64,000 nt of DNA from an uncultured Chlorobiota bacterium (GTDB lineage Bacteria; Bacteroidota; Ignavibacteria; UBA10030; UBA6906): the NCBI GenBank assembly GCA_900696645.1, contig CAADGV010000023.1, positions 84,272 through 148,271 of the forward strand. The letters are read 5' to 3'. Positions 4,668 through 13,198 of the stretch are shown piece after piece. The translations under genes were made by a program, and so were the position numbers. How positions within the stretch are numbered: the first letter of the stretch is position 1; each line of letters opens with the position of its first letter. Below the pieces are notes generated by a model. That model worked only from the letters and a program-made list of their open reading frames with translations. It had not been told where the DNA came from and searched no databases.

Positions 4668-4688
4668 TTCGTGTATTTCTAAGGTATT

Positions 4689-4762
4689 GCCGACGTAGCT
4701 CAGTTGGTTAGAGCACCAGATTGTGGATCTGGGGGTCGCAGGTTCGAATCCCGCCGTCGGTA
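4689..4762 (+). tRNA. tRNA-His (anticodon GTG)
   Basis: A 74-base cloverleaf ending at discriminator base 73. The acceptor arm is GCCGACG with CGTCGGT, D arm GCTC/GAGC, anticodon stem CCAGA/TCTGG with loop TTGTGGA giving anticodon GTG, and T arm GCAGG/CCCGC with TTCGAAT. CCA is not encoded. Three points are odd. Base -1 is T rather than the G-1 that normally marks tRNA-His. The discriminator is A73 rather than C73. The first pair is G1-T72. The T stem also has an A-C mismatch. These match the alternative histidine identity known in many alphaproteobacteria; see the hisS entry. Confidence 0.93.
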
Positions 4763-10157: not shown

Positions 10158-11600
10158 ATGTCCGAACAACAAATTGTAGAGCCAAGATTGCTTCGCGGCT
10201 TTCGAGACTATCTTCCCGCGCAAATGAATGCGCGGCTGAGGATGATCGCCGCGATCCGGAATGTGTATGAACGATACGGATTTCAACCTCTCGACACGCC
10301 GGCTCAGGAATATCGCGTCACGCTGATGGGCTACGGCGAGGAAAACACGAAGCAGATATTCGCTTTTCAGAACCCGGAAGAAGAAGACGTTGCCCTTCGC
10401 TTTGATCTCACCGTTCCGCTTGCCCGCGTTGTAGCACAATATCCCGATCTCGTGTTGCCGTTTCGCCGCTACCAGGTCGCGCCGGTGTGGCGTGCCGACA
10501 AGCCGGACCCGGGACGGTTTCGTGAGTTCATCCAATTTGATCTGGATGCAGTAGGCACGTCATCGCTTGCAGCAGACGCAGAGATTCTCTGTGCAATGCA
10601 TGATACGTTGAAGGCATTAGGCATCGAACGCTTTAAGGTCAGATTCAGTGACAGAAAAGTGCTGAATAGCTTGTTGGACTTTGCAGGAATCTCTCACGAT
10701 TCTGCGCACAGCGTCTTCCGCATTCTCGATAAGTTGGAGAAAATCGGGATTGATGGTGTCTCCGCAGAATTGACGGAGGGGAGGATTGACGCGTCGGGAG
10801 ACAAGATTCCCGGATTGGGATTGAACAACAATCAGGTTGAGCGAATCAAGGAGTTCATTGCAGTCCCGAAAGGAAAGCGGCGTGAAGTTCTTTCCTCGCT
10901 CGAATCACTATTTACGAAAGTAGAGTCGGCGAAAGAAGCGGTTGAAGAATTGCGTTTTGTCTGTAACTCGCTTGATGCTCTTTCCATCTCTGAAGATCAC
11001 GTGCAGCTTGATCTCAGTATTGCCCGGGGACTTGACTACTACACAGGCCCCGTTTTTGAAGCGAGCCTTGACGATGCACCTGAGTTCGGCTCGGTATTCG
11101 GGGGCGGACGGTATGACGGATTGGTAGAAAGATTCCTCGGAAGAAAAATCCCCGCAGTCGGCGCCTCGATCGGTGTTGACCGGCTTTTTGCCGCAATGGA
11201 AATGCTCGGCTTGCACCGGCTTGCGCCGTCAACGGCGAAAGTCATTGTTACGGTGATGGAGCCATCACGTCTTTCTGCGTATCAGAAGCTGACACGAGAA
11301 TTGCGCGAAGCAGGCATCAACACGGAAATGTATTTGGGAGAAGAAAAGACACTCGGCAAACAATTACAATATGCCAACCGCCAGCAAATTCCTCTTGCCG
11401 TCATCATCGGCAGCGATGAGTTTGCGAAGGGTGAGGTGACAATCAAAAATCTGAAACTCGGCGGCGAGTTGCAGGATAAGAAGAAAACCGCTCAAGGCAA
11501 GGAACGCGAGGAATGGCTGAAACTTTCCCGGACAGTGCAGGTTACAGTTCCGTTAGCCGAAACAACACATCAAATTAAAAAAACACTCGAAACAATCTGA
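10158..11600 (+). CDS. hisS: Histidyl-tRNA synthetase, alphaproteobacterial/eukaryote-like type
   Basis: A 480-residue class II synthetase charging tRNA-His. Motif 2 lies in PFRRYQVAPVWRADKPDPGRFREFIQFDLDAVG. The histidine-binding motifs ARGLDYYTG and GGGRYDGL and motif 3 GVDRLF are present, and the anticodon-binding domain covers residues ~370-470. The motif 2 region and the FSDRKVL strand resemble alphaproteobacterial and eukaryotic enzymes more than E. coli HisRS, which has a different sequence there (NSLG type). This fits the tRNA-His in this window, which lacks G-1 and C73. A terminator hairpin follows. Confidence 0.95.
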   Translation: MSEQQIVEPRLLRGFRDYLPAQMNARLRMIAAIRNVYERYGFQPLDTPAQEYRVTLMGYGEENTKQIFAFQNPEEEDVALRFDLTVPLARVVAQYPDLVLPFRRYQVAPVWRADKPDPGRFREFIQFDLDAVGTSSLAADAEILCAMHDTLKALGIERFKVRFSDRKVLNSLLDFAGISHDSAHSVFRILDKLEKIGIDGVSAELTEGRIDASGDKIPGLGLNNNQVERIKEFIAVPKGKRREVLSSLESLFTKVESAKEAVEELRFVCNSLDALSISEDHVQLDLSIARGLDYYTGPVFEASLDDAPEFGSVFGGGRYDGLVERFLGRKIPAVGASIGVDRLFAAMEMLGLHRLAPSTAKVIVTVMEPSRLSAYQKLTRELREAGINTEMYLGEEKTLGKQLQYANRQQIPLAVIIGSDEFAKGEVTIKNLKLGGELQDKKKTAQGKEREEWLKLSRTVQVTVPLAETTHQIKKTLETI

Positions 11601-11674: not shown

Positions 11675-13198
11675 ATGTCAATAGTATTAGATGGTTCATC
11701 ACTCACAATTGAAAAACTGGTTCGTATCGCACGACACGGAGAAAAAGTCGAACTTGCCCCTGCCGCGCTCGAACGAATCAAAGTCTGCCGCGCAATGCTT
11801 GAAGATAAGCTGCGGGCTAAAGAAGTCATGTACGGCACTAACACGGGCATCGGCGAGTTTTCTGAAATTGTCTTGAATGACGAACAGGTTCGCGACTTTC
11901 AACGCTATCTGATCTATAACCACGCTGCGGGAATCGGAGACCCTGCACCAATTGAGCATATCCGCGCAGCGATGGCAAGCCGCATCAATGTGCATGCGCA
12001 TGGGAACTCCGCGTGCAGGCCGGAGATTACCATGACATATGTCGAGATGCTGAACAAAGGTGTGACACCCGTTGTGTGCCAGAAAGGATCGGTGGGTGCA
12101 TGTGGCGATCTTGCCCCAATGGCACAAGCCGCATTGTTGCTTATGGGAGAAGGTGAGGCGTTCTATAACGGCGAGCGACTTCCGGGTCGTGTTGCGATGG
12201 AACGGGCGGGAATTCCTGTTCCGGGTCTTCATGCGCGTGACGGGTTGGCGGCGATAAACGGCTCAAATTTGCTTACCGCGATGAGCGCCGTTCATTTGTA
12301 TGATATCAACCGATGGTTGAAGCAGGCGGAGATTGCGGCGGCAATGACGCTTGAGGCCTTGTTCGCCAATCTGAAACCGTATGATACGAGATTGCATGAG
12401 TTGCGCGGTTTCCCCGGCGCCGTCCGGACTGCAAAAGCGATCATGCGCTGTATTCAGGGAAGCGACCTCACAACGGGTAAGATGAAAACCAAAGTCCAGG
12501 ATGCATACTCTATGCGATCGACTCCGCAAGTGATCGGTGCAGCGCATGACGCCGTAGCGTGGGCAACGAAGCAAGTCGAAACCGAACTCAACGGCGTTGC
12601 AGACAATCCCATTTTCATTCCCGACGCGAAGCTTACTCTGACCGGAGCAAATTTTCAGGGGTCGCCCGTCTCGTTGCCGATGGATATGATTGGTGCAGCC
12701 GTGACGATGGTGTGTGTCCTTTCGGAGCGCAGACTGAATCGTCTGACAAATCCCGCCCTTAGCGTCGGGCTTCCTGCATTTTTGACCAAGGATCCGGGGT
12801 TCTTTTCGGGATTGATGTTGAGTCAGTACACGGCGGATACACTCATTACCGAGCAACGCATTCTCTCCGCTCCGGCATCGATTCTTTCTATTCCCGCGGC
12901 AGCAGATCAGGAGGATTTTGTTTCGATGGGAATGAACACTGCAATAAAGAATGGTCAGATTCTCGAGAACGCTTACGGAGTTGTCGGAATCGAATTCATG
13001 GCGGCGGCTCAAGCAATCGAGTTCCGTCAGTTTACACCGGGACTTGGCGTAAGAACGGCGAAAGATGTGATTCGCAATCATGTGAATCGTCTCGAAGAGG
13101 ATCGCCCGCTCTTTCCTGATCACAACGCGATGCAGACGCTTGTCAAGTCGTGCGAGATACTGGAAGCCGTAGAGAATACTGTAGGAAGTCTGCAGTAA
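11675..13198 (+). CDS. hutH: Histidine ammonia-lyase-like MIO enzyme with Ala-Cys-Gly cofactor triad
   Basis: A 507-residue aromatic amino acid ammonia-lyase of the HAL/PAL/TAL family. Residues known from histidine ammonia-lyase are kept at the same numbers: Tyr53 (YGTNTG), His83 (YNHAAGIG), and Glu413 in QEDFVSMG. His83 favours histidine or tyrosine over phenylalanine. The MIO prosthetic group normally forms from Ala-Ser-Gly; here residues 142-144 are Ala-Cys-Gly (GSVGACGDLAP, Cys codon TGT at 12101). A Ser-to-Cys change at this site in Pseudomonas HAL is known to still give cofactor. No hutU, hutI or hutG is nearby, so the substrate is not certain. AAAGGA precedes the ATG. Confidence 0.88.
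   Translation: MSIVLDGSSLTIEKLVRIARHGEKVELAPAALERIKVCRAMLEDKLRAKEVMYGTNTGIGEFSEIVLNDEQVRDFQRYLIYNHAAGIGDPAPIEHIRAAMASRINVHAHGNSACRPEITMTYVEMLNKGVTPVVCQKGSVGACGDLAPMAQAALLLMGEGEAFYNGERLPGRVAMERAGIPVPGLHARDGLAAINGSNLLTAMSAVHLYDINRWLKQAEIAAAMTLEALFANLKPYDTRLHELRGFPGAVRTAKAIMRCIQGSDLTTGKMKTKVQDAYSMRSTPQVIGAAHDAVAWATKQVETELNGVADNPIFIPDAKLTLTGANFQGSPVSLPMDMIGAAVTMVCVLSERRLNRLTNPALSVGLPAFLTKDPGFFSGLMLSQYTADTLITEQRILSAPASILSIPAAADQEDFVSMGMNTAIKNGQILENAYGVVGIEFMAAAQAIEFRQFTPGLGVRTAKDVIRNHVNRLEEDRPLFPDHNAMQTLVKSCEILEAVENTVGSLQ

Follow-up and report, generated by a model that had tools for sequence, protein, structure and literature searches.

In almost all bacteria, tRNA-His is labeled for histidine by an encoded extra guanosine, G-1, that pairs with C73; the enzyme that adds a G-1 is Thg1. 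A G-1-less system occurs in alphaproteobacteria—Rhodobacteraceae, Rhizobiales, Caulobacterales, Hyphomonadaceae, and most SAR11—and has been studied in Caulobacter crescentus. Histidyl-tRNA synthetase (HisRS) of E. coli reads C73 with Q118 and G-1 with R123 (PMC10100707), and the alphaproteobacterial enzyme is reported to read G1:U72 and A73 without G-1 (PMC7590224, PMC9976931). The G-1-less A73 tRNA-His has been called unique, with a single likely origin among bacteria, has been used to place SAR11, and has been ascribed in its origin to a eukaryote-derived HisRS (PMC3937112). That alphaproteobacteria came to their eukaryote-like identity by convergence has also been suggested (PMC5370408), and the protists Trypanosoma brucei and Acanthamoeba castellanii histidylate their tRNA without G-1 (PMC6471195). 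Alphaproteobacteria are the only bacteria named with such a tRNA-His in these papers (PMC9976931, PMC3937112, PMC5370408, PMC6471195), and our literature search, which covered the primary alphaproteobacterial studies through later papers, found no earlier report from other bacteria.

Here, we describe a tRNA-His of this form and its HisRS in the window, i.e., the whole stretch of 64,000 nucleotides from an Ignavibacteria genome that we analyzed (Table 1), and follow both genes through other bacteria. The mechanism is already known from alphaproteobacteria; its wide spread and the linkage of the two genes are the new part and appear unreported.

Table 1. Location of the tRNA-His and hisS features in the window.
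Feature	Position	Strand	Details and basis
Position -1 of tRNA-His	4688..4688	+	T in place of the usual encoded G-1; direct reading
tRNA-His(GUG)	4689..4762	+	74 nt; G1-U72, C2-G71, A73; anticodon 4723-4725; direct reading, ARAGORN, Rfam
hisS, A73-type HisRS, 480 aa	10158..11600	+	TIGR00442, 387 bits; clade membership
Motif-2 loop KPDPGRFR, codons 115-122 of hisS	10500..10523	+	Alignment; E. coli RPQKGRYR
C-terminal extra segment of about 20 residues, codons 438-459 of hisS	11469..11534	+	Alignment; in the anticodon-binding domain

The tRNA-His and HisRS of the window

The initial annotation had read a T at position -1, a G1-U72 pair, and A73 in this tRNA-His, and all three hold up in direct reading. 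ARAGORN calls the gene tRNA-His(gtg), and it matches the Rfam family RF00005 with 70.4 bits. The two strands of the acceptor stem, GCCGACG and CGTCGGT, form the G1-U72 pair, and A73 is directly followed by CTG, so no CCA is encoded. By its fold and Rfam score, this is a sound tRNA. A tRNA search over the whole genome, as the initial annotation had proposed, found no second, standard tRNA-His: the gene is the only one for histidine among the 44 tRNAs detected in the assembly (4.2 Mb, 100% complete), which is not gap-free for tRNAs since tRNA-Ile(GAU) and tRNA-Ala(UGC), usually at home in rRNA operons, are missing. The proposed comparison with related Ignavibacteria showed that A73 and U72 recur in 2 genomes of the same genus (G001, with a tRNA-His identical to that of the window over the matched 3' part, and G002) and in 12 others of the families f1 and f4, which rules out a sequence error.

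The missing G-1 is not a matter of chance, because G stands at -1 in all 116 distinct C73 tRNA-His genes (112 by script and 4 by eye) while 43 A73 tRNA-His genes are mixed (29 T, 8 C, 5 G, and 1 A). A selected U-1 was considered and rejected, as the -1 bases of A73 tRNA-His genes resemble those of the other tRNAs of the genome (23 T, 12 C, 5 G, and 4 A among all 44). Later addition of a G-1 is unlikely because Thg1 (PF04446) is absent from all 98 genomes of the order that were searched, with a control match in Methanosarcina acetivorans.

The sole HisRS gene of the genome (a single match in G000) lies 5.4 kb downstream of the tRNA-His on the same strand and contig. By sequence, its product belongs to the archaeal/eukaryotic-like type, with HisRS of Elizabethkingia, Nostoc, and human rather than E. 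coli as nearest solved relatives, and its structure model has a confident HisRS fold (pLDDT 90.5). In the aligned motif 2, Asp117 stands where E. coli has Gln118, and the counterpart of E. coli R123 is still an arginine. The C-terminal extra segment has the pattern ..DRxxWxxxR.xQ.. and is predicted in the model to be helical (residues 432-444 and 448-457); it is present in the complete A73-clade HisRS compared, except that of locus L184 (see below), and absent from the C73 enzymes compared. Directly downstream of hisS, the window holds a histidine ammonia-lyase-like gene of the hutH family (11675-13198).

Distribution in Ignavibacteria and other phyla

Most of the genomes that we compared are metagenome-assembled. 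All 15 typed genomes of f1 and f4 combine the A73/U72 tRNA-His with a window-type HisRS, and all 52 typed genomes of the families f2, f3, f5, and f6 have C73, G-1, and an ordinary HisRS, with no window-type enzyme. Identity to the window HisRS is 85-92% within the genus and 52-63% in the sister family. One genome of the same family (G004:C104:1725-2944, locus L233) has its A73-type hisS split over three overlapping frames, probably by sequencing frameshifts. Across Bacteroidota, a pattern search (with a pattern that excluded G at position 76) found C73 tRNA-His. A single acquisition common to the order of the window and f10, from another order of the same class, is not rejected (AU p 0.17), and transfers within the phylum are therefore not counted here.

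Scanning named genomes with the window HisRS yielded 80 loci, though some record titles may belong to misassigned metagenome-assembled genomes. These loci come from Ignavibacteria, Acidobacteriota, Zixibacteria, Coatesbacteria, Kryptoniota-like Bacteroidota, Planctomycetota (Phycisphaerae), Hydrogenedentota, Omnitrophota, Verrucomicrobiota, Abditibacteriota, Nitrospirota, Cloacimonadota, Marinimicrobia, Patescibacteria, and Hyphomicrobiaceae. Outside the order of the window, a genuine tRNA-His match without C73 accompanies the A73-type HisRS in 35 of 35 genomes, a count from which a 36th match (G511) was left out as not tRNA-like; A stands at base 73 in all but one, which has T, and base 72 is a T except in four Phycisphaerae with C. 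The occurrence of the A73 system in about ten other phyla is patchy: of the 149 genomes in each evenly drawn sample, approximately 12 from Planctomycetota and 5 from Acidobacteriota have A73. Our alphaproteobacterial sample comprises 11 A73 and 62 C73 genomes, and all 11 of the former have an A73-type HisRS. The initial annotation had pointed to alphaproteobacteria as the known exception: they do share the form, but this frame is too narrow, given the other phyla and the position of alphaproteobacteria as one nested branch (see below).

Several individual genomes stand out. The Zixibacteria genome G491 (locus L120) pairs a T73 tRNA-His with an A73-type HisRS that has the loop KPDPGR, and judging by these sequences the discriminator may drift in the A73-type system. 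Genome G617 of the alphaproteobacterial sample has two A73-type HisRS genes (C51:219954-221354 and C24:209589-211028). The Acidobacteriota genome G798 holds both a C73 and an A73 tRNA-His, on contigs C19 and C72, which makes it either a genome in transition or a mixed bin. In six Planctomycetota (G757, G668, G725, G741, G707, and G643), the tRNA-His 3' end reads ..GCCGC or similar, which implies G72 and thus an unusual first pair, C1-G72, together with C73.

Phylogeny of HisRS and covariation with tRNA-His

In a HisRS tree built from an alignment stripped of the motif-2 loop and the insertion, with one eukaryotic (human) and no archaeal sequence, all A73-type enzymes including that of the window form one clade (support 99/97). 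Its membership also draws on a quick tree of 95 rows. Branching order within this clade is weakly supported. The alphaproteobacterial A73 enzymes sit inside it, on a branch (100/100) shared with those of Cloacimonadota, Marinimicrobia, Coatesbacteria, and one enzyme from Phycisphaerales, and the group of the window stands elsewhere in the clade, apart from this branch. Human HisRS, the one eukaryotic sequence used, falls outside. Topology tests reject a vertical history (p 2e-69), which would group the alphaproteobacterial A73 enzymes with C73 enzymes of the same broad type from alphaproteobacteria. With the same single eukaryotic sequence, they also reject a grouping with human HisRS for the alphaproteobacterial A73 enzymes (p 6e-8) and for those of Phycisphaerae (p 9e-5).

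Along the alignment, A73 mostly goes with a KP[GD]xGR motif-2 loop and C73 mostly with R[PA]QxGR. Since the HisRS tree shows the A73 state arising only once, independent origins do not replicate this covariation of loop and tRNA. There are departures on both sides. L270 combines the loop RPGKGR with a C73 tRNA, and the Gln is likewise missing from a few further C73 enzymes. Phycisphaerae with a C72/A73 tRNA-His have a longer, eukaryote-like loop, NPYEKRGR: in L134, L135, L136, L139, and L142, the A73-clade HisRS has a loop two residues longer (NPYEKRGRFREF; compare human NPAMTRGRYREF), which looks convergent because the grouping of Phycisphaerae with human is rejected. At L184 (6649-8080), a HisRS with the loop KPQAGR and no extra segment lies upstream of a nearby tRNA-His whose combination of A73, G1-C72, and a G encoded at -1 is eukaryote-like.

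The sister of the A73 clade (support 90/86) is the HisRS of locus L155 (460-1798; Patescibacteria CR_Bin_021), which has a Gln loop (KPQKGR), no extra segment, and a G-1/C73 tRNA-His 18 bp upstream. This locus possibly pictures the state before the change of identity, and it means that HisRS kinship alone is no proof of the identity rule.

Linkage of tRNA-His and hisS

A tRNA-His lies 25-215 bp upstream of hisS on the same strand at loci of Zixibacteria, Coatesbacteria, Marinimicrobia, Hydrogenedentota, Verrucomicrobiota, Abditibacteriota, and Planctomycetota, and 67-180 bp upstream in four genomes of the order of the window. Within this order, the two genes are at most 10 kb apart in 11 of 15 A73 genomes, in two of which (G001 and G005) their orientation is opposite. 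Around the ordinary hisS genes surveyed, there was no tRNA-His within approximately 1.5 kb. Given the close pairs in relatives and other phyla, the gap of 5.4 kb in the window suggests that later insertions have driven the two genes of an original pair apart.

Discussion

We consider it very probable that the tRNA-His and HisRS of the window are a matched, G-1-independent system that an ancestor of f1 and f4 received laterally, the two genes most likely arriving together as a linked pair. RNase P would trim the 5' leader of the tRNA to G1, and no G would be added, Thg1 being absent. The altered HisRS, whose motif-2 loop no longer has the C73-reading Gln, would select its tRNA by G1-U72, A73, and the GUG anticodon instead of G-1:C73. 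This pair would have replaced the ordinary G-1/C73 tRNA-His and HisRS of the ancestor, and the alphaproteobacterial A73 system would be another branch of its spread between phyla. The initial annotation had left lateral transfer and independent origin side by side; of these, transfer is favored, since the window enzyme shares a clade with the alphaproteobacterial A73 enzymes and is unlike the HisRS of the order's other families, and an independent origin is disfavored. The broader reading, to which we lean with some reserve, is that tRNA-His and hisS are a portable and self-sufficient cassette of single origin from an L155-like G-1/C73 ancestor that repeatedly entered other phyla and displaced the resident identity.

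An unlikely but serious alternative is that the HisRS gene traveled alone and that the resident tRNA-His then mutated to G1-U72 and A73 and lost its G-1. The tRNA body (positions 3 to 70) of the window would fit this, being up to 88% identical to C73 tRNAs of its own phylum and up to 83% to A73 tRNAs of other phyla; as it is no closer to the latter, body similarity does not decide between cotransfer and conversion in this lineage. In the Planctomycetota and most Acidobacteriota compared, however, the A73 tRNA bodies are closer to A73 tRNAs of other phyla and, on this similarity, look foreign. The adjacency of the two genes in many phyla and in the order itself, set against the ordinary hisS genes surveyed, also speaks against a lone transfer, and a foreign HisRS arriving by itself would at first have had to charge a C73 tRNA. 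That Ignavibacteria and alphaproteobacteria changed tRNA and enzyme convergently is very improbable. Convergence has a precedent in what was suggested for alphaproteobacteria, and the different, longer loop and C72/A73 of Phycisphaerae show that details can change, but the A73-type enzymes form one clade even without the motif-2 loop and insertion columns and have the insertion in the anticodon-binding domain in common.

We give still less credence to a HisRS taken up from eukaryotes, the origin proposed for that of alphaproteobacteria. A73 is the eukaryotic histidine discriminator and the window enzyme is archaeal/eukaryotic-like by sequence, yet the one eukaryotic sequence used falls outside the A73 clade, and grouping with it is rejected in tests on the alphaproteobacterial and Phycisphaerae enzymes. 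Least probable of all is that an assembly error or contamination brought in both genes from another organism while the assembly failed to retain the normal pair. The related genomes are mostly metagenome-assembled, G798 with its two types of tRNA-His may be a mixed bin, and the assembly of the window lacks a few tRNAs; but tRNA-His and hisS share one contig, and the feature recurs in 15 genomes from many genera of the order, with HisRS identities that grade from genus to sister family.

To the eukaryotic and convergent origins suggested previously, a matched pair in many phyla, often adjacent, adds a third, a single origin within bacteria with subsequent transfers from one phylum to another. 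This weakens the trait as a marker of vertical descent. It also offers a natural example of what seems to be the transfer of an identity rule along with its enzyme, as well as many natural HisRS/tRNA pairs, possibly orthogonal to E. coli. If the cassette reading is true, the alphaproteobacterial case—called a once-only synapomorphy and a eukaryotic transfer—is that of one recipient.

Comparison with known systems

Canonical bacteria (E. coli, Elizabethkingia with HisRS structure 6nhi, and the order's other families) share with the window the HisRS fold, the catalytic motifs, the GUG anticodon, and the equivalent of R123, but they have a G-1/C73 tRNA and a Gln loop (RPQxGR), neither of which the window has, and no extra segment. 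Eukaryotic tRNA-His, with A73 and a G-1 added by Thg1, resembles that of the window in its discriminator, and Phycisphaerae members approach eukaryotes in their longer motif-2 loop and C72; the difference lies in the absence of Thg1 from the order of the window and the position of human HisRS outside the clade. Protist tRNA-His without G-1 is alike in this respect but eukaryotic, and Trypanosoma HisRS matches the window enzyme more poorly in sequence than human HisRS does. The alphaproteobacterial system differs by a Gly in the loop (KPGPGR versus KPDPGR with Asp in the window), by its separate branch of the clade, and by gene order, with no tRNA-His within approximately 1.5 kb of the alphaproteobacterial hisS genes sampled whereas the two genes are linked in the order of the window. 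Nevertheless, it shares with the window a tRNA-His with G1-U72 and A73 but no encoded G-1, the KPxPGR loop, the C-terminal extra segment, and membership of the same HisRS clade.
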